A stretch of 64,000 bases of DNA, taken from an uncultured Alphaproteobacteria bacterium. Its GTDB lineage: Bacteria > Pseudomonadota > Alphaproteobacteria > Rhodobacterales > Rhodobacteraceae. Made by a program: the position numbers and the translations under genes. The stretch spans positions 24,056 through 88,055 of the forward strand of contig CACFXF010000005.1 of assembly GCA_902570265.1 (NCBI GenBank), in the 5' to 3' direction. Shown here in pieces: positions 9,095 to 56,354 of the stretch (positions are counted from its first letter, which is position 1; each line of letters starts with the position of its first letter). The notes under the pieces are model-generated. The model saw only the letters and a list, made by a program, of their open reading frames with translations. It had not been told where the DNA came from and ran no database searches.

Positions 9095-12000
9095 TTAAAT
9101 TATACCACAACCTCCTCCTCCAGGAGTTTCTATTTGTAAAATATCATCTCTGTCTAAAGTAATTTTATCACATGGTTTAAGAATTATTTTTTTTCCATTA
9201 CTTTTATAAACAGTTGATTTTCCGACTTTTCCAGCTCCACCACCATTAAGACCTGGTGGTGGAACTTGACGATGGCCTGAAATAATTGCCAAACTCATTT
9301 TTTGAAGAAATCTAATATTTCTAATTACACCATTTCCCCCTTTTGCAATCCCACTTCCTCCTGAATTTTTTCTTATTGAAAAGTTTTCTAAGACTACGGG
9401 GAATCTTGATTCAAGTATTTCTGGATCAGTTAGCCTACTATTTGTCATATTACTATGCACTCCAGATGTCCCCTCATAAAGTTCTCCATTCTTAAGAATA
9501 CCTGCCCCTGTTCCCCCACATATAGTTTCATAATATTGGTATTTTTTATTCCCCCAAGTAACATTATTCATAGTGGATTGAGACGCAGCTTGTACACCAA
9601 AAGCAAGTAATAGAGCCGATGTCACTGCTTGACTTGTTTCTACATTTCCAGCGATTACTGCAGCAGGGTATTCTGGCGAAAGAATAGTACCTTTTGGTAG
9701 TACTAACTTAACATTTTCCATTAAACCCGCATTCATTGGTATTTTTCCACCAACTAAAATTCTAATGGCATATAACACAGCAGCTCGGGTTACTGGTTGC
9801 GGAGCATTAAAATTTGTTTCAGTTTGGGATGTTGTCCCTGAAAAATCAACTACAATTTTTTCTGGGTTTTTGGTGGTACTCACAGAAACACATATTTTTC
9901 TCTTTTTATTATCAATGTCGTCATCCATATAATAAATGTACGATCCTTTCTTAATTGATTTCAGAATACTTCTTACCATTTCAGATGCATTGTTATTCAC
10001 AAATTTTGTATATTTTTTTACTAAAGTGACACCATACTCATTAATCAAATCTCTTAATTCTAATTCTCCCTTTTCGCAGGCCGCAACTTGAGCTCTAAGA
10101 TCTGCAAGATTCTTTGAAAGGGATCTCACAGGAAATTTTGCTCCTAGTAAAAGATCTGAAATTTCTCTTTTTTTAAAATTCCCATTTTGTACTAATTTGA
10201 AATTATCAATATAAACACCTTCATCTTCAATTTCTCTACTATCTGGAGGCATAGAACCTGGAGTAAGTCCTCCTACATCAGTGTGGTGACCCCTTGCAGC
10301 AACAAAAAACAAAATTTCATCTTTTGAGGGATGAAAAATCGGTTTAATAACGGTTATGTCTGGGAGATGTGTACCACCATGATATGGTGCATTCAGAGCA
10401 TAAACATCTCCTTTTTTAATATTCTTATTTTTTAAGATTATAGCTTTAACGGAAGCATCCATCGAACCTAGATGAACAGGCATATGTGGTGCATTGGCTA
10501 TTAAATCTCCTTTCTTATCAAAAACCGCACAGGAGAAATCTAATCTTTCTTTTATTGTAACAGACTGTGCCGTATTTTCTAAAACAATCCCCATTTGTTC
10601 TGCTACTGACATGAATATATTATTGAATACTTCCAACATCATTGGATTAGGTTTTGAAGTTTCAAAATTCTTAATTTTATACTTTTTTTCACTTGTACTT
10701 TTCAAAATAACGTCATCATGCTCTAATTTCTCACATTGCCAATTTGGTCTGACTAGAATCGAAGTAAATTCATCTATTACTATGGCAGGTCCAATTACTT
10801 TTTCGTTTATATAAAGGTATTTTTTTTGAACCAATTTACACTTTTGCCACTTTCCATCTATAAATATCTGATCACTAAAGTAATCTTTTTTAAATAAATC
10901 TTTATGTAGTTTTTGATTATTTTTATCCCTAATTTCATTATTTTTTGATTGGAATACTTCTACTGCAATTGAATCAATGTGAATTGGATCATCTGATATT
11001 TTAAATCCATACCTTCTTTTAAAATTTGTATAGAAATCTTCTCTCATATCATCAAAAGACTTGAATCTTACTTGAAAAGTTGTATCAGAGTTCTTTAATC
11101 TTAGAAAAATTGTTTCATATATCCCAATATTGTCTTTTTCTATTTTTTGAGCAATAAGCTCATGTTTTAACTCATCAGTTAATCTATTAAGAGAATTTTT
11201 CAAAAGTTTTAAATTTGCTCTTGTTAGAGGCTTTTCAATAGTCTCTTTTTTCAAACTTCTAACATTAGCTAATCCAATTCCATATGCTGAAAGCAAAGAA
11301 GCTTTTGAATGGATATAACACTTTTTTATATTGAGATTCTCAGCAATTGAGCACGCAAATTGGCCACCTGCCCCACCAAAAACTGTGAGGCAATATTTAT
11401 TGAGATCATATCCTTTTTGAACTGAGATTTTTTTAATTGCACTTGCCATATTCTGAGATGCTATGTTCAACCAATCTTCAGCTAAACTCTCTTCAGATTG
11501 ATTTAGTTTTTGAGCAATTGAACGAATGGCTTTTCTAGGGGTTGCTTGATCTAAAAGCTTTTTACCATTTTTTCCAAAAATAGCTGGAAAAAATTCAGGC
11601 CTTAATCTTCCCGTAATCAAGTTAGCATCTGTCACAGTTAAAGGTCCTCCATTGCCATAAGAAGAGGGACCAGGATAAGCGCCTGCACTTTCAGGACCGA
11701 CTTGCAATCGGCCTAACCTATAAGAAAGTATACTTCCACCACCTGCTGCTACAGTATTTATATTCATCATGGGGGAAGCTAACCTCACGCCAGCAATTTG
11801 ACTTCTATGAGTTCTTTCATAACTTCCTGAAAAATGGCAAACATCTGTAGAAGTTCCACCCATATCAAAACCAATTATTCTATTTTCACCTATTTTTTTG
11901 CTTACTTCTACTGCTCCTACCACGCCTCCAGCAGGACCAGATAAAACAGCATCCTTCCCTCGAAATAAGTCTTTAGATATTAAACCACCATTTGATTGCA

Positions 12001-41043: not shown

Positions 41044-41944
41044 TCAATTTATTTTACGTTTAATAAGGAGTAAATATATCGATCTCAGTAAAATCGATAT
41101 TAATATTATTTTTCCTCCTATTAGAGTATTAAAAGTTGTATATTCATTCAAAAATAACCACACCCAAAATGGGCTAAGAGCAATTTCTATGAAAAAAAAT
41201 AAAGTTACTTCTGCAGCGATCAGGTGCCTTGTGGCAAACACAAAACAGAAATTAACAAAACCTGACAGAACTGCTCCTAATATAAAACAAAGGAAAAAAT
41301 CATTACTAGATATTTGCAATGATCCCATTTTTTGAAATAAAGATAATGCCATAGCAATCACACCTGACATTAACAAACATGGCAACATATCAATATTCTT
41401 ATTCATCCTCAAAATTATGGTAAAGATTGAGAAACAAATAGCAGCAAAAAGAGCAAGTATGTTCCCCCACAGTGCCCCTATTAACAAAACACCATAGAAC
41501 ATTACTAATAACCCCCCAAATGCTAAAAACATTGTAAAAATAGTAATTTTAGCTAATTTTTCTTTAAGAATTAAAAAGGAAAAAAAAGCAGTTAGAAAGG
41601 GGATAAGACTTATAGTAAAAAACAGTATTTGCGACTGTTGTGGATGTCATTGATAAAATGAAACATATATTTGATGCACTTAATACAATTCCTCCAAGGA
41701 GCCCATAAATTCTAATTTCAATAATTTTTTTTAAAACGTCATTTCTATATTTAAAAATCAGATACAAAAAAATAGAAAAAGAAAAGGAAAAAGCTCGATA
41801 AAATATTATTGTCCAGTCATCTGCTAAATCTATATTCCTAAGGACTAATCCATTAAAGCTAATGGCTATAGAACCAACGCTCATTAATAATATAGATAAA
41901 AAGTGTTTATTTTTAAAAGAATAATAGCTTTGTTTCATAATCAA
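41044..41944 (-). pseudogene. EamA/DMT transporter split by a frameshift
   Basis: ORFs 41564..41944 and 41044..41532 join as ...STTVANTVF-TISLIPFLTAFFSFLILKEKLAKITIFTMFLAFGG...; shift at A6 (41617-41622 on +). Confidence 0.8.
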
Positions 41945-42192: not shown

Positions 42193-42942
42193 ATGAGTAT
42201 TTTGAAAAAAAAAACCGCTATTATTACTGGTGCCGCCCAAGGAATAGGAAAAGCTATTGCTATGAGATTTTCAAAGGAAGGAGCGGTTGTTGTCCTTTTA
42301 GATACAAACAAGAAAAAATTAGATTTAACTTTATCAGAAATTGGTAGTAATGCTTATGGTTTTCAGGTTGATATAACAAATGAAAAAGATGTGGGAAAGA
42401 TAATAAATAATGTTGAAAACAGTTATGGGGTTATAGACATTTTAGTAAATAACGCAGCTTCTACTAGTAAAAAAGAAAAAATAACCAAAATTTCATTAAA
42501 AGAGTGGGAAAAAGTCTTACGTGTTAACATTAACGGAACATTCATTGTTACTAAATCAGTTTTGCCTGGAATGATAAGTAATGGAAGTGGGATCATTATT
42601 AACATAGCATCCCAGCTAGGTTCAGTAGCCACAAGAAATAGTTCCCCTTATTGTACTTCAAAGGGAGCAATAATTCAATTTACTAAAGCACTAGCTTTGG
42701 ATCATGCGTTAGACGGAATTAGAGTTAATAGTTTGTCACCAGGAGCAGTTTTAACTCAAAGATTAATTGATATTTATGGATCAGAAGAAAAAGTTAATGA
42801 TCAACTCTTATCAAAGCATCCTATTGGAAGAATTGCAAATACAAGTGAAATTGCTGCAGCAGCAGTTTTCTTGGCATCTCCTGAATCTTCTTTTGTAACA
42901 GGATCAGATCTATTAGTTGATGGTGGGTATTTATGTCAGTAG
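42193..42942 (+). CDS. SDR family oxidoreductase
   Basis: TGAAQGIGKAIAMRF, NNAAST, YCTSKGAIIQFTKALA, DGGYLCQ C-terminus. Confidence 0.9.
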   Translation: MSILKKKTAIITGAAQGIGKAIAMRFSKEGAVVVLLDTNKKKLDLTLSEIGSNAYGFQVDITNEKDVGKIINNVENSYGVIDILVNNAASTSKKEKITKISLKEWEKVLRVNINGTFIVTKSVLPGMISNGSGIIINIASQLGSVATRNSSPYCTSKGAIIQFTKALALDHALDGIRVNSLSPGAVLTQRLIDIYGSEEKVNDQLLSKHPIGRIANTSEIAAAAVFLASPESSFVTGSDLLVDGGYLCQ

Positions 42943-42944
42943 AA

Positions 42945-43706
42945 TTACATAGAAACTAATGAAAAAAATCTTTTTCTCCATTTAATACCAGTATACCACT
43001 CCTTTAAATTTTTTTGCGAAGGCTTTTGTTTTTCTATAATTAGACACGTTCTCCAAATCAAACAAAGGTTAGCAGAGATAACAATCAAATTTGATTTATT
43101 ATCTAAAATAGAAGGTAGAGTTGGAAGACCGGTACCTAAAAATAAAATTAAATCACAGTTTTCTGACTCAATCTCATATAAACAATTTTTGGTTGTACTT
43201 GTTTGAATAGTGTAAATTGGATGAAAATTATTTTTTTTCTGTTTTAATCTTTTGATTACCTTTATATTGTATGGAATTTTTTTCCAATAAGACATTGCTT
43301 TGTTATGCAATTTATCATTATATGGAGATATAATACCAATTTTTTTTGGCTTAATCACATTCAAAGCATCACAAATAGCGGTTGTTGCAGAAATAATAGG
43401 ATACCCACGTCTAGAAGAAATTTTTTTTAGATATTCCTTTTCTTCAGTAGATTCAAAAAAATAAGAGGCACCGGTGCATGCAAATAAAACCGTTTTTAGT
43501 GGTGCATTAGCAAATTCTTCAAGATTATTATCAATTTGATTTATATATTCGATTAACCTTGAATTAATAGTTGGCTTTTTACTAGTCAATCTTGATGTTA
43601 TCAGTCCAATACTTGGGGGTTTTAAAATTGAAAACTCTGCCTCTACAGTTGTGTTTGCCTGTGGAGTTAAAACACCTACTAATCCTTTTGGGGCGTATTC
43701 TAACAT
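42945..43706 (-). CDS. Asp/Glu racemase superfamily (maleate isomerase / arylmalonate decarboxylase-like)
   Basis: GVLTPQANTTVEAEF, VLFACTGASYFFES, KKIGIISPYNDKLHNKA, LILFLGTGLPTLPSI. Confidence 0.75.
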   Translation of the reverse strand: MLEYAPKGLVGVLTPQANTTVEAEFSILKPPSIGLITSRLTSKKPTINSRLIEYINQIDNNLEEFANAPLKTVLFACTGASYFFESTEEKEYLKKISSRRGYPIISATTAICDALNVIKPKKIGIISPYNDKLHNKAMSYWKKIPYNIKVIKRLKQKKNNFHPIYTIQTSTTKNCLYEIESENCDLILFLGTGLPTLPSILDNKSNLIVISANLCLIWRTCLIIEKQKPSQKNLKEWYTGIKWRKRFFSLVSM

Positions 43707-43758
43707 AGTATAAAAATGTACTCTTTTTTAATTAAATGATTGAACCTACTAGCCTCAT

Positions 43759-44349
43759 TTAAATACTTGATGCTTCCTCTGAGGTAATTGAATGAACAAT
43801 TGTAGACATATCCAAAAGGGCCGTAGAGTGAGATTCTGCTGAAAAAGAAGCACACCCATCAGAAATTAATGTTGAACTAATATCGCGCAAATGTGCATCT
43901 CTTATTGTAGAGGCTACCCCTCCATTAGTAACAATACCACAAACATATAAATGTTTTATATTTGCTTTTCTTAAAATCCATTCAAGACGAGTCATATAAA
44001 AAGCTGAATAGGCTACTTTTTCAATTATAATATCTGCAGGCTTAAGTTCATCTACCAAATTGTGTCCCCATTCACCAGAAACAAAATCCCCTTTCCCAAG
44101 AAAAGGTCTCATTTTTTTTAAATGTTTAGAAATAAAAGGATTACCATTTTTACCTGGTACTAAAGTAAACTGCGCTGATATTATCCATGAACCATTTTTT
44201 TTAAATCTTTCAACTACAGGAGATATTCTTGATGGTAATGCGCTTATATGATTATTTTGTAGCCCTGCTCTTCCATAAGCTCCTTTATTATGTAAGAAAT
44301 CATTTTGTAAATCGATTATTAATAAACCTTTTTCATTAAAAGTACTCAT
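43759..44349 (-). CDS. Isochorismatase-like (cysteine hydrolase superfamily) protein, Gly at nucleophile position
   Basis: LIIDLQNDFLH, EKVAYSAFYMTRLE, CGIVTNGGVASTIRDAHLRDI. Confidence 0.85.
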   Translation of the reverse strand: MSTFNEKGLLIIDLQNDFLHNKGAYGRAGLQNNHISALPSRISPVVERFKKNGSWIISAQFTLVPGKNGNPFISKHLKKMRPFLGKGDFVSGEWGHNLVDELKPADIIIEKVAYSAFYMTRLEWILRKANIKHLYVCGIVTNGGVASTIRDAHLRDISSTLISDGCASFSAESHSTALLDMSTIVHSITSEEASSI

Positions 44350-44365
44350 TTGGTGTCCTCGGCTT

Positions 44366-46420
44366 TTAACTTTCTTTTTCTTTTATTATTAAATTTCCAG
44401 TTGTATCTACTTTTGCAAACAATCCAGGATCCACAAAAATAGTTGTATCAGATTGTTCAAGAATTGCTGGACCTTCCACCTTTTCATTAACTTTCAATTC
44501 TAATCTGTCATATAGTTTGGCTTCCCAAAATTTACCGTCACAGTATACTTGTCTAGCTCCTAATATACACTCCTCTTTTGATTTACCTTCTAAAGGTGAA
44601 AAAAGTTTCATGTTAAATGGTAACTTTTTGCCCAAAACTATAATTCTGTAATTAATTATTTTAATTGGTATATTTTCTAACAACCGTCCAAAATTTGATA
44701 AATATGCCTCATTGAAGGATTCTTTGATTTTTTGTTCTTTTAAATTTGTATTTTTAAATGCTAAAGGAACTGAAACAGTGTGAGTTTGGCCAGCATATAA
44801 CATATCTAACTCAAAATATCTTTCCACAGATTTAATTGAAGCATTTGAATCAAGAACTTGTTTTTCAAGAATATTTGCAGAATTTTGCATTTTTTTGGCT
44901 AAATCATTTGCATCAACTCCATTTAAAAATTTATTCACAGTTTGAACTCGGTCATACAAAACATCAGCAACCAAACAGCCTAAAGCGGAAGTAACCCCAG
45001 GAAACCTAGGAATAATAGCAGACTTCAAACCCACTTCTTTTATAAGTGATCCAGTATGCAATGCTCCACTACCTCCAAATGGCATCAAAAAAAAGTTTCC
45101 TGGATCATGTCCTTTTTCAATTGAAACCAATCTAATAGCACCGGCCATTTTGGCATTTGCAACTTTAAGAATAGCTTCAGCTGCATCCTCAATAGATAAA
45201 TTTAGCTTATTGGCTATATTTTGTTTTATAGATTTTCTTGATTTTTCTATATCCAAACGTTTAAGTTTTCCACCAATTGGCCGCTCAGGATTTATCCTAC
45301 CCAATACTAAATTTGCATCTGTAACTGTAGGACTATTATTTCCCATTCCATAACAAACTGGACCTGGTTCAGAACCAGCAGACTCTGGACCTATTTTAAG
45401 TAAACCACTAGTATCTATACTGGCAATTGACCCACCACCTGCACCAATTGTTGTAACTTCAATCATAGGTGTTCTTACTGTCATGCCAAAATCTATGGAA
45501 GTTTGAGCGGTAAATGTTAATCTTCCTTGAGTTATTAAAGAAACATCAAATGAAGTTCCACCCATATCACAGGTAATAATATTCTTAATGCCAGCTGAAA
45601 GTGCTATAGCGCGTCCTGCAATTACTCCTGCAGCAGGCCCAGAAAGAGTAGTTCGAATGGGATACTGTTTTGCAATATCTAGGGACATAGTCCCTCCATT
45701 TGATTGAACGACGAAAATATCTTTTTTGAATCCATGATTTTCTAATTTGAGTTTTAAATTATCTAAATAAGATGAAACAACAGGCTGAAGATATGCATTA
45801 AGTACAGATGTGGATAATCTTTCAAATTCTCGAATTTCTGGTAAAATCTCAGTAGAGACTGAAACAAAATCATTAGGCCAGTTTTTCCGTACTATTTCAG
45901 CAGCTTTATGTTCATTTGCGTTATTGGCATAAGAATTTACAAAAAAAATACAAACAGCATCAATTTTAAGAGATAACAAGCTATTGATGCATTTTTGTAT
46001 TTGCTCCTCTGAAACATGTTTTTCTATTTTACCATTAGACAGAACTTCTTCTGAAACTTCCATCCTAAATTTTTTTTTAACAATAGGTTCATAACTACCT
46101 TTTAATCCCCAAGTCTTTGGTCTGTCGCGTCTTCTCATTTCTAATATGTCAGAAAAACCTTGGGTAGTAATTATCCCAGTTCTAGCACCACGTCTCTCAA
46201 GTAATGCGTTAGTTCCTACAGTCGAACCATGAACTAAATTTTTTATTTTTGAAAAATCATCTACTATAGTAGATATTCCCTTTATGAAACCTTCCGATTG
46301 GTCTTTTTTCGTAGAAGGTACTTTTGCAGTCATTATACATTTACTTTTTTCATCAAATACAAATATATCTGTAAAAGTACCTCCAACATCTACCCCAACC
46401 TGAAAATTTAAAATACTCAT
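44366..46420 (-). CDS. hyuA: Hydantoinase/oxoprolinase subunit A
   Basis: VGVDVGGTFTDIFVFD, HGSTVGTNALLERRGARTGIITTQGF, CDMGGTSFDVSLI. Confidence 0.92.
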   Translation of the reverse strand: MSILNFQVGVDVGGTFTDIFVFDEKSKCIMTAKVPSTKKDQSEGFIKGISTIVDDFSKIKNLVHGSTVGTNALLERRGARTGIITTQGFSDILEMRRRDRPKTWGLKGSYEPIVKKKFRMEVSEEVLSNGKIEKHVSEEQIQKCINSLLSLKIDAVCIFFVNSYANNANEHKAAEIVRKNWPNDFVSVSTEILPEIREFERLSTSVLNAYLQPVVSSYLDNLKLKLENHGFKKDIFVVQSNGGTMSLDIAKQYPIRTTLSGPAAGVIAGRAIALSAGIKNIITCDMGGTSFDVSLITQGRLTFTAQTSIDFGMTVRTPMIEVTTIGAGGGSIASIDTSGLLKIGPESAGSEPGPVCYGMGNNSPTVTDANLVLGRINPERPIGGKLKRLDIEKSRKSIKQNIANKLNLSIEDAAEAILKVANAKMAGAIRLVSIEKGHDPGNFFLMPFGGSGALHTGSLIKEVGLKSAIIPRFPGVTSALGCLVADVLYDRVQTVNKFLNGVDANDLAKKMQNSANILEKQVLDSNASIKSVERYFELDMLYAGQTHTVSVPLAFKNTNLKEQKIKESFNEAYLSNFGRLLENIPIKIINYRIIVLGKKLPFNMKLFSPLEGKSKEECILGARQVYCDGKFWEAKLYDRLELKVNEKVEGPAILEQSDTTIFVDPGLFAKVDTTGNLIIKEKES

Positions 46421-48174
46421 TGAAAAGATTTCCTCTTTGTACGATTTTCTTTTGTACCATCCAAATCAATATTACCATCACTATCAAAAATTACTCCATA
46501 AGTTTCCTCAGCAGTTTCAAAACTTATATAATCCTCTTCTAAATCTTTAACCACTTCCTCAATTTTTCGATTTAATGGATTCCCATAACCTCCACCACCA
46601 GGTGTTTTGAGTAAAACACTTTCACCTTTCGTTATTTCTATACCTACTACTTTTGAGACCATTGGAGGTTCCAAATATTCAGAGGTTGTCTGTACGCAAA
46701 ATTTATTTGTTTTTGCATTACCACCACCAATAATACCTAATGGTGGAAATTTTCCTCTTTCTCCAAATAATGAAACATTGGCCTTATCTTCAAGAAGCTC
46801 TATTTCATATGTTGCACCTAATCCCCCTCTAAATTCACCCCCACCTCCAGAGTCAGTCCTCAGCGCCCATTTTTTAAACTTTATTGGATAAGCAGCTTCC
46901 AAGATCTCTAGGGGAGGAATTGTGGCTGTAGAAATGGGGGCGTTTCCATGATTTAATCCATCCCCATTATGATGTCCTCCATGACCCCCGCCAAAAAATG
47001 AAAACATAACCCATCTTTTCCCAATATTATTGAATCCAGAAATTGATAAAGCATTGATTGTTCCATAGGCGCAAGCCATAGATTTTGAAGGAGAAATTTT
47101 GGAAAATGTTAAAAAAATTACATCGATTAATCTTAATATTGTTTCAGTATAGCCACCAACAGGTTTCGGAGCACTAACACTTAAAAGGCTATCTTTATTG
47201 ATTTTAAATCTTATCGGTTTTAATACTCCAGCATTAGCTGGTACATCTTCAAAAATGTGCTTTAATGCTACATAACAGGCTGCGATAGTTGTAGAAAGAG
47301 AAATATTTACTGGTCCCATACAAGCTTTTGAAGAACGTGTAAAATCTAAGATCATTTCATCTTTTTTAACTGTAAGATCTAATGCAATCTTTAATGGTTC
47401 ATCTAAAATACCATCATTATCTAAAAAATCCTCTGATGAATATTTTCCTTTAGAAAGTTGAGAAATTTGTTTTCTCATCATTATTTCTGCTCTCTTTTTA
47501 AGAGATGATAGTGCAGCTAAACCAGTCTCAAAGCTATATTCATTAAGTAATGACTTTATGCGATCTTCTCCTAAATCAACTGCATTTATTTGACCATGAA
47601 GATCACCATAAAGTGAGACTGGGAGTCTAGAATTTGAAGAAAGAATATCTATTATCTCTTCTTTTAGTATCCCCTTTTCAAACAATTTCACAGGTGGAAT
47701 TAATATACCTTCTTGGAAACACTCTGTAGCAACTGGGTTATAATTTCCAGGTATGTTGCCTCCAATATCGTGCCAATGACCAACAGAAGCAATATAACAA
47801 AATAATTTTTTATTAAAAAAAACTGGTTTTACTAATCGAAAGTCAGATAAATGAGTGCCACCTTTATATGGGTCATTAAAAATCCAAACGTCACCATCTT
47901 GCGGCTTCTCCCCGATTTGATTAAGTTTATCAATAATTGTCTTAACACCAAAAGCCATTACCCCAACAAATATTGGAAGACCGGAATTGCCTTGAACTAA
48001 TGTTTCACCAGTATAGGCATCATAAATCCCATGAGATGCATCATGAGCTTCTGCTATAATAGGGTTAAATGCCGACCTAAATAATGTTGCATCCATTTCA
48101 TCTGCAATTTGTTCAAATCTACCCTTCAAAATAGCTAAGGTAACGGGATCAATTGCATGATCATTATTATTCAT
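46417..48174 (-). CDS. hyuB: Hydantoinase/oxoprolinase subunit B
   Basis: DPVTLAILKGRFEQIADEMDATLFRSAFNPII, NDPYKGGTHLSDFRLVKP, KTPGGGGYGNPLNR; 4-nt overlap with hyuA. Confidence 0.92.
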   Translation of the reverse strand: MNNNDHAIDPVTLAILKGRFEQIADEMDATLFRSAFNPIIAEAHDASHGIYDAYTGETLVQGNSGLPIFVGVMAFGVKTIIDKLNQIGEKPQDGDVWIFNDPYKGGTHLSDFRLVKPVFFNKKLFCYIASVGHWHDIGGNIPGNYNPVATECFQEGILIPPVKLFEKGILKEEIIDILSSNSRLPVSLYGDLHGQINAVDLGEDRIKSLLNEYSFETGLAALSSLKKRAEIMMRKQISQLSKGKYSSEDFLDNDGILDEPLKIALDLTVKKDEMILDFTRSSKACMGPVNISLSTTIAACYVALKHIFEDVPANAGVLKPIRFKINKDSLLSVSAPKPVGGYTETILRLIDVIFLTFSKISPSKSMACAYGTINALSISGFNNIGKRWVMFSFFGGGHGGHHNGDGLNHGNAPISTATIPPLEILEAAYPIKFKKWALRTDSGGGGEFRGGLGATYEIELLEDKANVSLFGERGKFPPLGIIGGGNAKTNKFCVQTTSEYLEPPMVSKVVGIEITKGESVLLKTPGGGGYGNPLNRKIEEVVKDLEEDYISFETAEETYGVIFDSDGNIDLDGTKENRTKRKSFQ

Positions 48175-49021
48175 ATTGTTTACCTTTATTAAGTATTTTT
48201 TCAGTATTCAATATTTGATTTAAATGATCTAGTTTATACATACTATCTAAAAAATTTAAATTTGAACCATTTAATAGAAGATTAGAAAAATAATTTTTTG
48301 ATAATTTTGCAATTGCCCTAACTAAACCACCTGGAAAAATGACTACCTTATATCCTATTTTTTCTAATTCCTTTGCATTTAATAATGGCGACATACCTCC
48401 TTCAACCATATTCGCCATTAGCGGAACTTCTTTTCTAAAAATACTTGTAATTTTTTTCATTTGATCTTTTGAAGTAGGAGCTTCTATAAACAAAATATCT
48501 GCACCTGCCTTAATATATTTATGTGAACGGTCAATTGCTGATTCAAAACCTTCTACAGCTATCGCATCTGTTCTTGCTACTATTAATGTTTCAGCACATC
48601 TGCGTGCATCACAAGCAGCTTTAATTTTTCCAACCATTTCTGTACATTCTATTAGTTTCTTATCTTTTAAATGCCCACATCTTTTAGGACTAATCTGATC
48701 CTCGATCTGAATAGCATTTGCCCCCATTCGTTCAAAATTTTTTACTGTTCTTTGAACATTCAATGCATTTCCAAATCCATTATCAGCATCAACAATAATT
48801 GGTAAGTTTACTCGATCTCTTATTACTGAGATAGTTTCTGAAACTTCTGACATACTGATCAGTCCAATATCTGGAAGTCCAAAACGGGTATATGCCAGTG
48901 ATGCACCAGAAAGATATACCAAATTAGCACCTGCTTGCTCTGCCATATGAGCTGATAATCCATCAAAAATTCCAGGTGCTATTAAAATATTTTCTTTCTC
49001 TAAAAGATAATTTAGTTTCAT
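48167..49021 (-). CDS. Isocitrate lyase/PEP mutase-family C-C lyase
   Basis: VYLSGASLAYTRFGLPDIGLISMSEV, DADNGFGN, QIEDQISPKRCGHL (K-R-C-G-H lyase signature). Confidence 0.9.
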   Translation of the reverse strand: MKLNYLLEKENILIAPGIFDGLSAHMAEQAGANLVYLSGASLAYTRFGLPDIGLISMSEVSETISVIRDRVNLPIIVDADNGFGNALNVQRTVKNFERMGANAIQIEDQISPKRCGHLKDKKLIECTEMVGKIKAACDARRCAETLIVARTDAIAVEGFESAIDRSHKYIKAGADILFIEAPTSKDQMKKITSIFRKEVPLMANMVEGGMSPLLNAKELEKIGYKVVIFPGGLVRAIAKLSKNYFSNLLLNGSNLNFLDSMYKLDHLNQILNTEKILNKGKQYE

Positions 49022-49042
49022 TCTCTCATCCTTATTAAAAAG

Positions 49043-49522
49043 CTATTTAATACGCTTTTTTAAATGTGGGATTAATCCTCCATCATTTAATATTTCCATT
49101 AGGTTTGTTGGTATACTTTCTAATTTTATTGATTTGTTTTTTTCAATGAGATTTAATTGATTATTTTTTAAATCAAAATCCACTATTTCACCATCTTGAA
49201 CATGCAAATTATCATAGCATACAACTGCGGGTAAACCTAAATTGATAGAATTACGATAGAATATGCCCGCAAATGATTGTGCAATGACAACAGAAATTTT
49301 TAAAAATTTAAGAACTTCTACGGCCTGTTCTCTAGAAGAACCCGTGCCAAAATTTTTTCCACCAAAAATTACGTCTCCTCTTTTTACAAGTTTGGGAAAA
49401 TTTGGGTATGCGTTTTCTAAACAATGCTCTGAAAGTTTTTTTATACCCTGCCCCATAAAACGACCTGGGGCAAGTTGATCAGTATCAATATCGTTACCTA
49501 ACAGAAATATTTTTCCAGCCAT
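49043..49522 (-). CDS. Aconitase-family small subunit (LeuD-like)
   Basis: GNDIDTDQLAPGRF, GGKNFGTGSSREQAVEVLK, FAGIFYRNSINLGLP. Confidence 0.88.
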   Translation of the reverse strand: MAGKIFLLGNDIDTDQLAPGRFMGQGIKKLSEHCLENAYPNFPKLVKRGDVIFGGKNFGTGSSREQAVEVLKFLKISVVIAQSFAGIFYRNSINLGLPAVVCYDNLHVQDGEIVDFDLKNNQLNLIEKNKSIKLESIPTNLMEILNDGGLIPHLKKRIK

Positions 49523-49533
49523 CCTAAACCTTC

Positions 49534-50793
49534 TTAATTTAAAAGATAATCTCTTGGATCAGTAATTGAACCAAAAATTGCTGTAGCTGCAACTGTTGCA
49601 GGTGATGCAAGCCAAACTTTTGAAGTCTTGTCACCCATCCTTCCCTTAAAATTTCTTGCAGTTGAAGAAATACATTTAATATTTGGGTCTAATCTATGTG
49701 CACCATAACCTGCACAAATTCCGCAAGAATTTGGTAATATAAAAGCACCTGCATCCTCAAAAATTTTCATAATACCATTTTGTTTTGCTTTTTTTTGTTC
49801 TTCTAAAGATGCGGGAGCAACGAGTAATTTAATCTTATTATGTATCTTATTATTTTTTAAAATTTTAGATGCAATATTTAAATCTTCATATTTTGCACCT
49901 GTACAAGCTCCAATGTAAGCAATTTCTACTTTTGTATTTTCAATTTCACTTACTGGCAAAGAATTTGAAGGTGAGTGTGGTGTTGCTACTTGAGGCTCTA
50001 AAATACTAGCATTAAAGTTATGTTTTTCAATTCCGGTAGCTTTGTCATCTGTAAAAAAGTTTTTCCAGTTTCCAGGATTAGCGCCTATATTGGTCAAAAA
50101 GTCAGCTGTTTTATTATCTGGAGCTATTAGACCTACTTGTGCCCCTAGCTCAGCTGACATATTCGAAAGTGTCATTCGTTCATTAATAGAAAGATTTTTA
50201 ATTGCTTGACCCATAAATTCAATCGCTTGATATTTACCACCATCCATTCCTAATTTACCACATAAATACAACATAATATCTTTTGCCATTACACCTTTTG
50301 ACAACTTTCCATGCCAATTTAGCAATATTGTTTTAGGGACTTTTACCCAAATCTCTCCTGTAGCTAATACACCTGCCATTTCAGTAGAACCGATACCAAA
50401 CATATATGCACCAAATGCTCCGCCAGTAGTAGAGTGGCTATCGCCACCAACAACAAACATCCCAGGACGCAAATGACCTTTGTTTGGTAATACTACGTGG
50501 CAAATTCCTTCAGAATCATAAAAAGTTGTATTATTTTTTTTTACCCAATCTCTAGTAAAATTCAGAATTTTTTCACCACTTTCTGTTCCACTAGATACAA
50601 AATGATCAGAAACAACTACTATTTTAGATGGATTATATAGATTTGCTCCCAAATCCTTTAGAATTGGTGAAACTCTTCTAGGACCACCTGAATCGTGTAT
50701 CATAGCTAAATCAACCTTAGCAGTAACTACCTCTCCTACACTCACAAACTCGCGGTTTGCAGCTTTTGATATTATTTTCTGTGCGAGACTCAT
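49534..50793 (-). CDS. Aconitase-family large subunit (LeuC-like)
   Basis: MSLAQKIISKAANREFVSVGEVV, VVGGDSHSTTGGAFGAYMFGIGSTEMA, GACTGAKYEDL, SCGICAGYGAHRL; ATG at 50793 preferred over the track TTG at 50826. Confidence 0.9.
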   Translation of the reverse strand: MSLAQKIISKAANREFVSVGEVVTAKVDLAMIHDSGGPRRVSPILKDLGANLYNPSKIVVVSDHFVSSGTESGEKILNFTRDWVKKNNTTFYDSEGICHVVLPNKGHLRPGMFVVGGDSHSTTGGAFGAYMFGIGSTEMAGVLATGEIWVKVPKTILLNWHGKLSKGVMAKDIMLYLCGKLGMDGGKYQAIEFMGQAIKNLSINERMTLSNMSAELGAQVGLIAPDNKTADFLTNIGANPGNWKNFFTDDKATGIEKHNFNASILEPQVATPHSPSNSLPVSEIENTKVEIAYIGACTGAKYEDLNIASKILKNNKIHNKIKLLVAPASLEEQKKAKQNGIMKIFEDAGAFILPNSCGICAGYGAHRLDPNIKCISSTARNFKGRMGDKTSKVWLASPATVAATAIFGSITDPRDYLLN

Positions 50794-51003
50794 ACGCAAT
50801 GCAGATCTCCAAAAATAGCTTCTCAAAGATTACAGTTAAAGCTTGACTTAATTATAATACATTAGATAGGCTTTATATATCTATAGCTTAAAAGGATAGA
50901 AAAATTTAAAAACTTAAGCAAATAAAATCTATCAATTATAATATATTAGTTTTAATTTTTTTGAATTATTTGAAGATCTAATGTTTATAAATTTAATGCA
51001 ATA

Positions 51004-51015
51004 AAACGATCGTTT
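51004..51015. promoter_or_regulatory. Perfect 12-bp palindrome abutting the TRAP operon start, candidate operator
   Basis: AAACGATCGTTT, ending 3 nt before the dctQ ATG (51019). Confidence 0.4.
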
Positions 51016-51018
51016 ATA

Positions 51019-51528
51019 ATGAGTAATTATAATAGTGTACTTACAAAAATAGATTTTTATTTTGAAAAGGTCTTATATTACTTGGCCGGTATACTTCTAC
51101 TTATAATGGCTTCATCAATATTTTATTCTGTTATGATGAGGTATGTATTTAGCAAACCACCTTTATGGTCAGATGAAGCACCTAGAGCCTTCTTTCTTTG
51201 GGTAACTTATATTGGAATTATTGTAGCAACAAAACAAGGTAAAAATATCCGTGTAACTCATTTTATTGATAAAGTACCTCCTTTACCAAGGGTGATTCTT
51301 GAGACTTTAATGCATATTCTCGTACTTATAATGTTAATTAGTTTAGTTTGGTTTAATTTTCCTGTTATCGAGTTACAGTTGGGTGGAAAAATGCTGTCTA
51401 CAGGATGGAGTTTTGTTTGGGTTTATGCCCCAATGTCTGTTGGTTGTGCACTAATGGTGATTTACCAAACTAGATTGATGATAAAAACAATTATTACATT
51501 TCAAGAATCTGAAATAAAAAAGGGGTAA
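51019..51528 (+). CDS. dctQ: TRAP transporter small permease
   Basis: Four TM helices, FSKPPLWSDEAPRAFFLWVTYIG; followed by large permease. Confidence 0.88.
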   Translation: MSNYNSVLTKIDFYFEKVLYYLAGILLLIMASSIFYSVMMRYVFSKPPLWSDEAPRAFFLWVTYIGIIVATKQGKNIRVTHFIDKVPPLPRVILETLMHILVLIMLISLVWFNFPVIELQLGGKMLSTGWSFVWVYAPMSVGCALMVIYQTRLMIKTIITFQESEIKKG

Positions 51529-51529
51529 G

Positions 51530-52825
51530 ATGCTTTTAACATCAATGATTATAATCCTTTTATTTTTTTCTCTGATGGGTATGGAAATAGCTTGGGCAAT
51601 TGGATTGGCTGGATTTGGATATTTAACTCTTTCCCAATTTTCAGATAATGCAACACCAATGGTCTTATTTGCTCAACAGATGACTTCAGGTGTAAATTCA
51701 TTTGTTTTAATTGCAATCCCATTATTCATATTTGCAGGAGAGCTTATGAATATTACCGGTGTGACTCAAAGAATAATCAAATTTGCAGCATCACTTGTTG
51801 CACATCGAAATGGTGGATTAGCAAATGTGGGCGTTACGGCTAATTTTATAATGTCTGGATGCTCAGGATCAGCTCTTGCTGATGCAGCTGCTACTGGAAC
51901 AGTATTATTACCAGAAATGAAAAAAAGAGGTTTTAACCCTGCTTTTTCAAGTGCTGTAATTGCCTCGGCCGCTACAGTTGGCCCCATTGTCCCACCGTCA
52001 ATTTCTTTTGTTTTATTGGGCGCTATTGTCAATATTTCAGTTGGACAACTCTTCTTAGGAGGAATAGTTCCAGGTATAATGATGTTTATAGCAATGTTTG
52101 CAGTTACTTGGTGGATTTGTAAAAAACGAGGTTACCCTTTAGAAAAAAAAGCAACAGGTAAAGAAAGAGGTGTAGCTTTTTTTGAAGGAATAAGTGCTTT
52201 AATTGCACCATTCATTATTGTAGGTGCTATCATTTTTGGTGTAGCTACTCCAACTGAATCTGCCGCAATAGCAGCATTTTATGTCCTTTTTCTTGGAATT
52301 TTTGTTTATCGAAATTTATCCTTAAAACAAATTATTGAAGCTGCATCACATGCAGCAATAATTACGTCTGTTATAATGCTAACAGTAGCCACTTCTAAAA
52401 TATTTGCCTGGTTAGCTGTGAAAGAAAACCTTGGAGAATATTTAATTAATGGTTTGCTTTGGATAACAGATGAACTCTGGGTACTATTACTTCTAATAAA
52501 TTTATTACTTCTAATATTAGGAATGATAATGGAAATTTTACCCATAATGCTTATACTAGCCCCAATTTTGTTTCCACTTTTAACTGGTTTGGGAGTAGAT
52601 GAAGTTCATTTTGGTGTAGTAATGGTGTTAAATCTTATGATTGGTATGATAACACCACCAATTGGACTTAACCTTTTTATTATATCATCGATTGGTGGTG
52701 TCGGTGTAGTAAATATATTTAAACAGGCTATTCCTTATTTTTTAATTTTGATAGTAGTTTTATTAATCATTACTTTTGTTCCATCATTAACTTTATTTTT
52801 ACCTGAGCTAGTTTTCAGGGATTAA
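51530..52825 (+). CDS. dctM: TRAP transporter large permease
   Basis: IPLFIFAGELMNITGVTQRI, ANFIMSGCSGSALADAAATG, GPIVPPSI. Confidence 0.93.
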   Translation: MLLTSMIIILLFFSLMGMEIAWAIGLAGFGYLTLSQFSDNATPMVLFAQQMTSGVNSFVLIAIPLFIFAGELMNITGVTQRIIKFAASLVAHRNGGLANVGVTANFIMSGCSGSALADAAATGTVLLPEMKKRGFNPAFSSAVIASAATVGPIVPPSISFVLLGAIVNISVGQLFLGGIVPGIMMFIAMFAVTWWICKKRGYPLEKKATGKERGVAFFEGISALIAPFIIVGAIIFGVATPTESAAIAAFYVLFLGIFVYRNLSLKQIIEAASHAAIITSVIMLTVATSKIFAWLAVKENLGEYLINGLLWITDELWVLLLLINLLLLILGMIMEILPIMLILAPILFPLLTGLGVDEVHFGVVMVLNLMIGMITPPIGLNLFIISSIGGVGVVNIFKQAIPYFLILIVVLLIITFVPSLTLFLPELVFRD

Positions 52826-52855
52826 TTATTATTTAATCAAACTGAGGAGAAAATT

Positions 52856-53845
52856 ATGAATATAAATAGAAGAAATTTTAATTCTGGTTTAGGAGCGATG
52901 AGTTTAGCATCAGCTCTAGTTGGAGTTGGAGCACCAACTCTGGCAGCGCAGACATTGATCTACGGCAATGCTGGAAATATTAATAGTGCTTCAAACAAAT
53001 TTGCAAAGAAATGGTTAGATTTAGTTACGGAAAGAACTAATGGAGAATTAGTCTTTGATATTAAAGCTGGTACTATTGGTGGTGGAAAAGATGTGCTTGA
53101 TGGAACAGCACTAGGCACAGTTAATCTTTACAACGGAGCCTATACAGGATTAAGAGAATTTGATGTTTTTTATGCTCCATATTTTGCAAGAAATTCTAAC
53201 CATGCACAGGCAATAGCGAATGATTTGTTATATGATGAGTTAAATTCTGCAGTTAAAAACCGTTATCCCTCACTGCACTATTTAAGTGTTGCTAGGGCTG
53301 GCCCATGGAAATTATTTACAAATCAAAAATTAGAAACATTTGATGATTTAAAAGGTCTTAAAATTAGAGCACCTTCTATTGAAGGCGTTATTGCAGGACT
53401 AGAACAGGTTGGAGCAAAACCAACAGTAATACCATTCAATGAACTTTATGGAGCATTACAGCAAGGAGTTGTTGATGGAATGGCTACTCTTGGAAATCTG
53501 ATGATTACTCAAAAGTTTTATGAGGTAGTTAAGCATTGTTATCAAAATGACTGGGGAATTGGACTTGATAAACAAATGATAAATATGAACACATGGAACA
53601 ACCTAGGAGAAAAAAATCAAAAAGTTTTAACTGAAACATTTAATGAACTTGAACCTCAAGATTTTTTTCGAGCTACAGAAGAAGCCGAAATCTCAAATTT
53701 TAAAAAATGGAGAGAAATAAATGGAGAAGATAGTACTCCTCTCTTAGATGCTACTGCAGCTCAAAAAACCCTTGAACCCGCTATAAAAAATCTTGCTGAT
53801 GATATATTTGGTTCAGGAACTTATGATAAAATACAATCGATTTAA
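52856..53845 (+). CDS. dctP: TRAP transporter substrate-binding protein, DctP family
   Basis: Tat-like signal NRRNFNSGLGAMSLASALVG, FDDLKGLKIRAPSIEG, ELYGALQQGVVDG. Confidence 0.92.
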   Translation: MNINRRNFNSGLGAMSLASALVGVGAPTLAAQTLIYGNAGNINSASNKFAKKWLDLVTERTNGELVFDIKAGTIGGGKDVLDGTALGTVNLYNGAYTGLREFDVFYAPYFARNSNHAQAIANDLLYDELNSAVKNRYPSLHYLSVARAGPWKLFTNQKLETFDDLKGLKIRAPSIEGVIAGLEQVGAKPTVIPFNELYGALQQGVVDGMATLGNLMITQKFYEVVKHCYQNDWGIGLDKQMINMNTWNNLGEKNQKVLTETFNELEPQDFFRATEEAEISNFKKWREINGEDSTPLLDATAAQKTLEPAIKNLADDIFGSGTYDKIQSI

Positions 53846-53930: not shown

Positions 53931-55568
53931 TTACTCCTCTTTTAAGATAAACTCAGAAGCTCTTTCTGCAACCATAATAGTAGGTGCAGCAGTATTAGCA
54001 GAAGTTATCGATGGAAAAATCGATGCATCAACAATACGAAGACCTTCCATGCCACGAACTCTCAGTTTTGGATCAACTACTGAATTCTTATCTGAACCCA
54101 TCCTGCAAGAACCTGTTAAGTGATGAACTGTGCTTGCCGTTCTTCTGACCCAATTAGAAATAGAAGATCTATTACGATTTGTTTTTCCTGGTGATAATTC
54201 TTCACCACGGTATTTATCAAACACTTTTTGAGAAAATACATCTCTCAGAATTTCTACACCATCTACTAATGTCTCTAAATCACGTTTGTCAGTTAAATAG
54301 TTAATTCTAATTTCAAGAGGATCTTTAAGATTTCTACCAGTCAACTTTAATTTTCCTCTTGAATATGGTCGCATTACCGATGCATTAGCCATGAATCCAG
54401 CAGTATAATTTTGTAGTTTTGAAAATGGGTTAAATCTTAAAGTAGCCGAACTCAAAGCTGGTAAAAAAGCACTTTGAATATTTGGGATTTCAGAATCTTG
54501 ACTGCAAATATATGCGCCCGCTTCTAAAGGAAAAATATTCATAGGACCACTACCAAATAATAAAGTCCGAATAAATTCATATGATGCTATATCAATCCTG
54601 GTTAATCGATGTAAAGATACTTCATAACCCGTTCTATGCGATACTCTTATCAAAGGGTGGTCATGGAGATTTTTCCCAACCTCTGGTAAATCTAAAATAG
54701 TTTCTATTCCTAATGAATTAAGTTCGTCTGCATCTCCTATCCCAGAACGCATCAAAATTACAGGGGATCCAATTGCACCTGCTGATAGTATTACTTCAGA
54801 ACTGGTCTTAAAAAAATATTTTTTTGAATTTTGAAAAGCTTCAACACCGATTATTTTTTTATTTGAAAATATTACCTTTGAAACTTCAAACCCTGTTTTT
54901 ATAGTTAGGTTAGGTCTAAAAGTATTATTTTTTAAGAAAGCAGTATAAGAACTTTCCCTGTGACCTTTTCTTATATTGAAATCATAATACCCAAATCCAA
55001 CAGGATTCTCTGTGTTAAAATCATTCAACCTTGGATAGCCAGCTGAAATACCTGCTTCTACATAAGTTTCTGCTAGTGGACTTACTGGTCTTTTCCTTTT
55101 AGAAACAGCAAGTTCACCATTTCTATTATGATCGTTAGAAATAGAATCTCCTAAATAATTTTCAGACTTTAAGAAAAAAGGGCGTACTGATTGCCAGGAC
55201 CATTCAGGCATACCAAGTTGTGACCATAAATTATAATCATGAGATAGACCTCTAGCATATAGCATACCATTAACAGAAGTAGATCCCCCAAGTACTTTAC
55301 CCCTTGGTAAATCAATCTCTCGATTATTAAGTGCAGTTTCTGGATTAGTTTTAAAATTCCACATTCTTCTCTTTCCCCTTAACAACAAAGATGTCATCAA
55401 AGGTACTTTCAAAGTTGGATCAAATTTACCTGATCCACCAGCTTCTAATAAAAGTATCTTAAAGTTTTTGTTCTCAGATAATCTAGATGCTAAAACACAA
55501 CCTGCAGCTCCAGCTCCTACTATTATATGTGTGAAAAAGTTAGAATTATTCTGTTTGTTTAAAATAAT
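53931..55568 (-). CDS. GMC family (choline dehydrogenase-like) oxidoreductase; probable ATT start
   Basis: The frame upstream of the track start reads (I)ILNKQNNSNFFTHIIVGAGAAGCVLASRLSENKNFKILLLEAGGSGKFDPTLKVPLM, supplying the FAD dinucleotide-binding motif; C-terminal HHLTGSCRMG and TSANTAAPTIMVAERASEFI. Confidence 0.87.
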   Translation of the reverse strand: MILNKQNNSNFFTHIIVGAGAAGCVLASRLSENKNFKILLLEAGGSGKFDPTLKVPLMTSLLLRGKRRMWNFKTNPETALNNREIDLPRGKVLGGSTSVNGMLYARGLSHDYNLWSQLGMPEWSWQSVRPFFLKSENYLGDSISNDHNRNGELAVSKRKRPVSPLAETYVEAGISAGYPRLNDFNTENPVGFGYYDFNIRKGHRESSYTAFLKNNTFRPNLTIKTGFEVSKVIFSNKKIIGVEAFQNSKKYFFKTSSEVILSAGAIGSPVILMRSGIGDADELNSLGIETILDLPEVGKNLHDHPLIRVSHRTGYEVSLHRLTRIDIASYEFIRTLLFGSGPMNIFPLEAGAYICSQDSEIPNIQSAFLPALSSATLRFNPFSKLQNYTAGFMANASVMRPYSRGKLKLTGRNLKDPLEIRINYLTDKRDLETLVDGVEILRDVFSQKVFDKYRGEELSPGKTNRNRSSISNWVRRTASTVHHLTGSCRMGSDKNSVVDPKLRVRGMEGLRIVDASIFPSITSANTAAPTIMVAERASEFILKEE

Positions 55569-56275
55569 TACAGTCCTTTAACTTTATCCTCAAATCCATT
55601 TTGTTTACTCATTTTTGCCCATAATTTATAAGGTTCACTTGCACTTACAGTTTTTTCTTTAATAAGTGCTCTCCATATATCACAAGCATCAACAAAATTA
55701 GGAACTCCACCAGGAAACATTGCAAGACTTAATGCTTCAGCTAATGTATTTTCATCCACATTTTCTTTATACGCACCTATTATGTGCTCCCTAACCCAAA
55801 ACCACCTTCGGTGACACTGATGACAAGCTGCGAGAGAAATCTCAATAAGCCATTTTTCTATTTTAAAATTTTTAGTTATATCATTTAAACCAGACCTATA
55901 TAAATCTATACCATTAAAATTTTTAAGATGTTTACCCCAATTATCATTAACAAAGTTAAATCTTTTTGATCCATCTGCCCATGCTGCTAAGGTTGTTGCA
56001 TTATTTACATCTATTTTACTACCTCCACATTTACTTAATCTATCTAAATGATGAGTCGCTATAGACTCACCAGTTGATATAAGGATAACAAGCCATACAA
56101 TTTCTTTTTGATATTCACTCATATACCTTTTTTTTAGTGTTAAATTAGTATAGGTTGAATCATACGCTTCAAGTAATTCTGGCGAAGAAATAGCCATCAG
56201 ACCATGGTGTGGTAATAAATAACCTCTTTTTTCTCTTAGTTTGCTTAATTTCTTTACTACTTCATTTGAACTCAT
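55568..56275 (-). CDS. Carboxymuconolactone decarboxylase/AhpD-like protein
   Basis: CMD fold with ACHQCHRRW (CxxC-H) motif; ATG at 56275 preferred over the track start 56290. Confidence 0.72.
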   Translation of the reverse strand: MSSNEVVKKLSKLREKRGYLLPHHGLMAISSPELLEAYDSTYTNLTLKKRYMSEYQKEIVWLVILISTGESIATHHLDRLSKCGGSKIDVNNATTLAAWADGSKRFNFVNDNWGKHLKNFNGIDLYRSGLNDITKNFKIEKWLIEISLAACHQCHRRWFWVREHIIGAYKENVDENTLAEALSLAMFPGGVPNFVDACDIWRALIKEKTVSASEPYKLWAKMSKQNGFEDKVKGL

Positions 56276-56354
56276 AATTAAGTATCTCACTCTAACTTGA
56301 ATTAAAAAGCAACACTGAAATTGGAAAAATATAACAATAACTAAAAAATGAATT

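Follow-up and report, generated by a model that had tools for sequence, protein, structure and literature searches.

The closest described systems each resemble one part of the gene cluster analysed here. ATP-dependent lactam hydrolases (caprolactamase CapAB, N-methylhydantoinase, 5-oxoprolinase) pair an ASKHA ATPase with a metal subunit. The maleamate pathway of nicotinate and nicotine degradation brings together an isochorismatase-fold protein (NicF/Ami) and a maleate-isomerase-fold protein. The methylcitrate cycle (PrpD/AcnB/PrpB) ends with a (de)hydratase followed by a lyase with a KRCGH loop. In Eubacterium barkeri, DmdAB is a LeuCD-type heterodimer that is paired with a dimethylmalate lyase of the PEP mutase superfamily. 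The isochorismatases PhzD and EntB hydrolyse vinyl ethers by acid catalysis without a cysteine nucleophile. The cluster studied here lies on 64,000 nucleotides of DNA from an uncultured alphaproteobacterium of the Rhodobacteraceae (assembly GCA_902570265.1, contig CACFXF010000005.1), a stretch that is called the window and whose positions are used throughout. It consists of leuC- and leuD-like genes, a PrpB-like lyase gene, hyuB, hyuA and an isochorismatase-superfamily gene (iso), facing a TRAP transporter.

HyuAB of the window shares the two-subunit architecture and the conserved sites of the lactam hydrolases, but scores far under the NCBIfam cut-offs of both caprolactamase and acetophenone carboxylase. 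As in the maleamate pathway, the isochorismatase and maleate isomerase folds occur together, and in one related locus (L071) both stand beside an HspB/PnpA-like monooxygenase. Unlike in that pathway, iso has no catalytic cysteine, the maleate-isomerase-like protein (AMD) has no second cysteine, and LeuCD and a lyase are part of the operon. The lyase would follow a hydratase as at the end of the methylcitrate cycle, and in another locus (L145) a MmgE/PrpD-family gene precedes it; however, no prpC or prpE was seen near the module, and the lyase stays under the prpB cut-off. The LeuCD-type heterodimer and the PEP-mutase-superfamily lyase are shared with E. barkeri, but neither a mutase nor an isomerase from that pathway was seen. 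Finally, iso has the fold of PhzD and EntB, yet in fold and sequence it is nearer to biuret, triuret and ureidoacrylate hydrolases.

The cluster is a conserved and apparently undescribed catabolic module with a plausible, hypothetical logic of import, ATP-dependent ring opening, cleavage of a second C–N bond, hydration and C–C cleavage. In the open literature searched, no account of the gene cluster turned up. Queries on this combination of genes, on dimethylmaleate hydratase and on the degradation of isonicotinate/citrazinate and of maleimides returned no relevant paper, and those for hematinic acid returned chemical or plant papers only. Family names alone would suggest leucine biosynthesis for LeuCD, hydantoin degradation for HyuAB and a cysteine amidase for iso.

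Conservation and layout of the module

Relatives of the window's LeuC were scanned, which yielded 49 loci (L035-L083), 37 of them with enough downstream sequence for gene order to be counted. In 31 of the 37, leuC, leuD, lyase, hyuB, hyuA and iso were complete and collinear on one strand. L069 also holds all six genes and was left out of the 31 owing to an overlap in the calling of open reading frames. As a control, 30 more distant LeuC loci, mostly archaeal, were taken from the same scan; none had hyuA, hyuB, iso or the lyase. HyuB (E <= 1e-200) was used as a second, independent anchor. Among the 18 HyuB-anchored loci examined, iso was adjacent in 17, the lyase present in 14 and module-type LeuCD present in 10. 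Because the arrangement is conserved across several orders, it is not due to chance, and leuC-leuD-lyase-hyuB-hyuA-iso is the core of a real conserved module. A preliminary description, made from the sequence of the window alone, had proposed seven co-occurring families. Six of them form this core, and the seventh, its "racemase", accompanies few copies of the module.

The carriers belong to many alphaproteobacterial families (among them marine roseobacters, SAR116, Stappiaceae and Rhizobiales), and one is a gammaproteobacterium. The module thus probably acts on a compound that is common in the environment and whose pathway lacks a description. A close HyuB (E <= 1e-200) was found in 28 of 385 sampled alphaproteobacterial genomes, about 7%, and fixing the substrate would give a function to this gene set. 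Within the window's genus, module LeuC was found in only 2 of 12 genomes, several of which are incomplete. The LeuC tree unites carriers of different families: Silicimonas groups with Tepidamorphaceae, Paracoccaceae REEB409 with Allorhizobium, and the gammaproteobacterial copy (Granulosicoccaceae) stands next to the window's pair. This indicates that the module has moved horizontally. One locus (L051, contig WNWL01000002.1) is labelled Oceanobacillus (Bacillota); its coordinates are the same as those of G015, from the window's own alphaproteobacterial family, and the genome is probably mislabelled.

In the window, the minus-strand operon runs leuC-leuD-lyase-hyuB-hyuA-iso-AMD from 50793 down to 42945, divergent from dctQMP (51019-53845). 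The features are as follows.

42193-42942, plus strand: SDR-family oxidoreductase, accessory, convergent with the last gene of the operon (adh_short_C2, 213 bits)
42945-43706, minus strand: maleate-isomerase/arylmalonate-decarboxylase-like protein (AMD), accessory (Pfam Amdase and fold search)
43759-44349, minus strand: isochorismatase-superfamily protein (iso) without nucleophilic cysteine, motif GIVTNGGVAST, core
44366-46420, minus strand: HyuA/CapA-like ATP-binding subunit, core (Hydantoinase_A with N- and C-terminal domains)
46417-48174, minus strand: HyuB/CapB-like metal subunit, core (Hydantoinase_B)
48167-49021, minus strand: PrpB-like lyase of the PEP mutase/isocitrate lyase superfamily, core (PEP_mutase/ICL)
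49043-49522, minus strand: LeuD/DmdB-like small hydratase subunit, specificity loop APGRFMGQ, core
49534-50793, minus strand: LeuC/DmdA-like [4Fe-4S] large subunit, core (open reading frame opens at a TTG, 50826)
50794-51018: divergent intergenic region between leuC and dctQ, 225 bp
51019-51528, plus strand: TRAP small permease DctQ
51530-52825, plus strand: TRAP large permease DctM
52856-53845, plus strand: TRAP solute-binding protein DctP
53931 to about 55577, minus strand: GMC-family FAD oxidoreductase, beyond DctP
55568-56290, minus strand: carboxymuconolactone-decarboxylase (CMD)-like protein, adjoining the GMC gene and conserved there

Each of the seven packed minus-strand genes that the preliminary description had reported was found at its coordinates and on its strand, and hyuA/hyuB overlap by exactly 4 nt and hyuB/lyase by exactly 8 nt. 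The start of leuC is likely the ATG at 50793, where homology begins, and not the TTG of the open reading frame; with this start the divergent region has the expected length of about 225 bp. DctQ, DctM and DctP of the TRAP operon were confirmed by Pfam/NCBIfam. The same searches agreed with the family labels given to iso, HyuA, HyuB, the lyase, LeuD and LeuC, and the "racemase" had to be relabelled as a maleate-isomerase/AMDase relative. The ten genes stood as given, and the SDR, GMC and CMD-like genes of the wider conserved locus had been missed. As reported, no regulator is present in the window's copy, though a GntR gene adjoins leuC in many relatives.

Predicted activities of the core enzymes

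LeuC is matched by PRK00402 (501 bits) and TIGR02086 (420 bits), above cut-off, and LeuD by the LeuD/DmdB model of NCBIfam (160 bits), also above cut-off. In the LeuC tree the module copies form one clade (25 rows, support 100/100), apart from archaeal-type proteins and from the isopropylmalate isomerase (IPMI) clade. The latter includes the genome's own second LeuC (contig C32, 3910-5262), beside which lies a LeuD-like match (C32:5500). The preliminary description had named two findings that would speak against it: LeuCD within the leucine clade in a genome with no other leuCD, and genes that do not co-occur in related genomes. Neither applies, and identity with the leucine isomerase was rejected. 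Module motifs differ from those of the outgroup (IGACTGAK vs IGSCTNGR, CGICAGYG vs CGPCLGGH, TARNF vs TNRNF, HDSGG vs HDGTS), with the cluster cysteines (GACTG, CGxC) and the small-subunit GSSRE kept in the motifs that the module copies show most often. LeuCD thereby retains the three cluster cysteines and the GSSRE motif of an aconitase-superfamily hydratase. Given the separate clade and the changed motifs around kept cysteines, LeuCD is most likely a hydratase whose specificity has changed and not the leucine enzyme. In LeuD, the residue after (Y/F)M of the specificity loop, which we take to be the equivalent of aconitase R580, is basic in most copies; the window and several relatives have Gly, Ser or Ala there instead.

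In the lyase, the KRCGH loop is invariant (45/45) and the other PrpB catalytic residues are invariant or nearly so. The protein thus keeps the PrpB active site, in line with the loop noted earlier. Near the substrate it has PGG where PrpB has PLS. It matches methylisocitrate lyases (191 bits) and the 2,3-dimethylmalate lyase 3fa3 (161 bits). The prpB model scores 300 bits, below its cut-off of 354, and no prp genes were seen nearby; the lyase was thus not assigned to PrpB, and no match anywhere in the genome reaches that cut-off.

HyuAB was compared at the ATP-site and metal-site residues that matter in caprolactamase (PMC8453981). The ATP motifs and an Asp-His-Asp-His metal site are kept across 34-38 homologues. 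HyuA conserves D11, D285 (in DMGGT), D292 and GxxPGP; D292, the equivalent of caprolactamase Asp302, is invariant in 35/35. The metal-site residues D45, H108, D111 and H133 of HyuB are conserved in 38/38. The closest solved relatives are an N-methylhydantoinase for HyuA and 6yra for HyuB. Of the NCBIfam models, the caprolactamase subunits score best, with 522 (HyuA) and 310 bits (HyuB); the equivalog cut-off is 1000, and HyuAB was not assigned to CapAB. The acetophenone carboxylase subunits reach 311 and 127 bits, also well below the cut-offs of that family. Since the caprolactamase-type residues are kept and caprolactamase scores best, ATP-dependent ring-amide hydrolysis is the most likely activity, which agrees with the ring-opening type proposed before. 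A second Hydantoinase_B domain (604 bits) is encoded at 9104-10648 on the minus strand, within a 1214-aa open frame, and is probably part of a fused 5-oxoprolinase-type HyuAB.

In iso, the nucleophilic cysteine is replaced by glycine in 34/34 LeuC-anchored homologues (window included) and in 17/17 HyuB-anchored ones, thus in all 51. The position was seen directly in alignments to RutB and triuret hydrolase; several of the solved chains compared with iso are Cys-to-Ser mutants. Asp and Lys of the triad (D13, K111) are invariant. The AlphaFold model (pLDDT 88) has triuret/biuret hydrolases and RutB as nearest folds, with maleamate amidohydrolase lower in the list. In shape, iso therefore belongs with the amide and ureide hydrolases, yet their thiol mechanism is closed to it. 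With glycine at the nucleophile position throughout, it is not an ordinary maleamate or carbamoyl cysteine amidase. Membership of this group (NicF, RutB, BiuH, carbamoylsarcosine amidase) and a role as creatinine/hydantoin carbamoylase or maleamate amidase in the classical form were rejected, and a classical amidase step, as which the earlier isochorismatase-like label could be read, is unlikely. Isochorismatases such as PhzD carry glycine at this site. They use an Asp to hydrolyse vinyl ethers (PMC12210187). We infer that iso might cleave an enamine, enamide or enol ether by acid catalysis, or hydrolyse an amide in a substrate-assisted reaction; it may hold new chemistry.

The proposed pathway and its alternatives

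We consider it about as likely as not that the cluster, as a horizontally mobile module, serves the catabolism of a nitrogen heterocycle that bears a carboxylate and could be a lactam, a cyclic imide or a cyclic ureide. In such a pathway, the TRAP transporter would import the acid, and GMC and SDR may first oxidise an alcohol group. HyuAB would then hydrolyse the ring amide with ATP, and iso would break a second C–N (or enol-ether/enamine) bond through acid catalysis. The product would be a cis-unsaturated diacid of the substituted maleate type. LeuCD, as a [4Fe-4S] enzyme, would hydrate it to a malate-type hydroxydiacid, and the lyase would cleave the latter to pyruvate or glyoxylate and a second acid. 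The reaction order, the substrate class, each specific chemistry and the substituted-maleate intermediate are what we infer here. The logic of import, ring opening, hydration and cleavage in the preliminary description holds in general; its racemase label and an amidase reading of its isochorismatase-like label do not.

The transporter is of the DctP type, with DctQ, DctM and a DctP that has the carboxylate-binding arginine. The general role of this arginine in DctP-type proteins has been described (PMC4646407). In the module's DctP, R171 and K152 are conserved in all 6 copies. The closest solved relative is 4NN3, a weak match (78 bits), which was crystallised with orotic acid, a carboxylated N-heterocycle, and has a lysine at a second site where others have arginine (PMC11668362). 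In the phmmer alignment the window's DctP has a lysine (K152) at what seems to be this second site. DctP and DctM share 80-92% identity with those of the window in carriers where the figure for the enzymes is mostly 50-73%. Other copies of the module come with a branched-chain-type ABC transporter in place of TRAP.

Variant loci bear on step order and substrate. L145 (6938-15949) reads MmgE/PrpD-lyase-hyuB-hyuA-iso-c6, with the MmgE/PrpD-family gene exactly in the position of LeuCD, which supports the proposed order of hydration before lyase cleavage. There, an allantoinase PuuE gene (435 bits, cut-off 424.6) overlaps the flavoenzyme gene c6. In L153, MmgE/PrpD precedes hyuBA. L071 (3654-11781) has AMD-lyase-iso-LeuCD without HyuAB, and between iso and LeuCD a monooxygenase gene whose product is nearest to PnpA (211 bits) and HspB (186 bits). 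The gene of another monooxygenase, nearest to 2,6-dihydroxypyridine hydroxylase (142 bits, with 70 for the next match), adjoins this cluster. In L076, an FAD dehydrogenase gene comes directly before LeuCD, and genes that by eye encode Mo-hydroxylases come after LeuCD. L077, L079 and L080 have LeuCD and lyase without HyuAB. On the other strand of L077 (8803-18535) lie two PuuE-like genes (sub-threshold) and an isochorismatase-family gene that keeps its cysteine. Together these contexts point to nitrogen-ring substrates, with differing ring-opening front ends and a shared hydratase-lyase back end. UbiX-like and SnoaL-like genes (both by eye) also occur in the L077 neighbourhood. A Clostridiales locus (L090) was considered as a reference for nicotinate fermentation and dropped, as no such pathway is present there.

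Several findings weigh against the heterocycle pathway. The homology of HyuAB extends to ATP-dependent ketone carboxylases, and the hint of orotate depends on the weak DctP match (78 bits). With the cysteine missing from iso, no established mechanism accounts for the second hydrolysis. Module-type LeuCD is missing from 8 of the 18 HyuB-anchored loci. A flavoenzyme, c6, often accompanies the module elsewhere but is missing from the window's genome (81% complete) and from its near relative.

An unlikely alternative is a ureide or hydantoin route. Here HyuAB would open a 5-substituted hydantoin or a pyrimidine- or purine-derived ureide, a racemase-family protein would handle the stereocentre, iso would act on the ureido product as in creatinine/hydantoin degradation, and LeuCD and the lyase would process the carbon skeleton. 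The N-methylhydantoinase nearest to HyuA, the triuret/biuret hydrolase and RutB folds nearest to iso and the PuuE gene overlapping the module in L145 fit such a route. So do presumed uric-acid genes beside the module in L064-L067 and L082 (xanthine dehydrogenase, hydroxyisourate hydrolase and OHCU decarboxylase, recognised by eye) and an Asp/Glu/hydantoin racemase-family gene in L038, L039, L041, L068 and L070. However, the carbamoyl-hydrolysing cysteine is glycine in 51/51 iso homologues, the "racemase" of the window itself belongs with maleate isomerase/AMDase and is short of one racemase cysteine, and the core status of LeuCD and the lyase is left unexplained. In 4 of the 5 loci L064-L067 and L082, the module is followed by a gene that by eye encodes a monomeric isocitrate dehydrogenase.

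It is improbable that the cluster has a tail of the dimethylmaleate type, as in E. barkeri nicotinate fermentation, with LeuCD as dimethylmaleate/citraconate hydratase, a lyase cleaving dimethylmalate or citramalate and HyuAB supplying the diacid. The LeuD/DmdB model over LeuD, the match of the lyase to 3fa3 and LeuCD motifs unlike those of IPMI and homoaconitase would agree with it. On the other side, methylisocitrate lyases match the lyase better (191 vs 161 bits), and the basic residue in the LeuD loop of most homologues would suit a third carboxylate.

It is distinctly improbable that HyuAB carboxylates its substrate with ATP, like the acetone and acetophenone carboxylases, within a ketone or aromatic-acid pathway. 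The superfamily is the same, an acetophenone carboxylase subunit matches HyuA at 311 bits, and GMC and SDR could make the ketone. In contrast, caprolactamase scores much better (522 and 310 vs 311 and 127 bits), the two-subunit architecture is that of lactam hydrolases, and invariant D292 stands where acetophenone carboxylase alpha' has Lys, though alpha has Asp.

Leucine or methylcitrate metabolism of the ordinary kind, against which the preliminary description had already argued, and a neighbourhood that arose by chance have only family names in their favour. Both are virtually excluded by the second LeuC with its LeuD-like partner on C32, the separate module clade (100/100), the collinearity in many genera and the lack of any match in the genome that reaches the prpB cut-off.

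A very improbable further reading is a new marine pathway that breaks down disubstituted maleimides or imides related to them, such as hematinic-acid-type fragments of chlorophyll and haem. HyuAB would open the imide to a maleamate, iso would free ammonia with the neighbouring carboxylate as nucleophile, and LeuCD and the lyase would turn the substituted maleate into pyruvate and a diacid such as glutarate. If true, this would supply a missing route of tetrapyrrole recycling and show the isochorismatase fold in a catalytic mode that is new for it.

Accessory and neighbouring genes

In L035, L046 and L047 the module is again surrounded by all of the SDR, AMD, TRAP, GMC and CMD-like genes; L068 and L070 have the same surrounding genes except AMD, with a weaker SDR match. 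AMD itself adjoins the module in few loci. Genomes with AMD carry HyuB above expectation (5/10, hypergeometric p ~3e-4, uncorrected for relatedness). Its Pfam match is weak (Amdase PF17645, 39 bits). The nearest folds of its model (pLDDT 90) are 4ix1 (uncharacterised), the maleate isomerases 4fq7/2xec and arylmalonate decarboxylase; Asp/Glu/hydantoin racemases rank about 30th and lower. The first cysteine is kept (C77) and the second site reads G-T-G. AMD therefore lacks one of the two cysteines of a maleate isomerase, although the fold matches, and the role of a hydantoin racemase, suggested by the earlier "racemase-like" label, is not supported. By its modelled fold, AMD is a maleate-isomerase/AMDase relative, accessory and outside the core.

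For GMC and SDR, vitamin B6 degradation by a pyridoxine 4-oxidase and a pyridoxal dehydrogenase was considered. This was dropped because GMC fits the choline dehydrogenase type better (300 bits vs 205 bits for pyridoxine 4-oxidase) and SDR is far below the cut-off of the pyridoxal dehydrogenase model. The FAD motif of GMC (55412-55577, minus strand) lies upstream of the TTG start of the open reading frame at 55412, with no in-frame ATG, GTG or TTG start there; the gene may open at a rare start codon, or the sequence may contain a small error. On the other side of the locus, two neighbouring short open reading frames (126 and 162 aa; 41044-41944, minus strand) look by eye like one frameshifted transporter of the EamA/DMT type.

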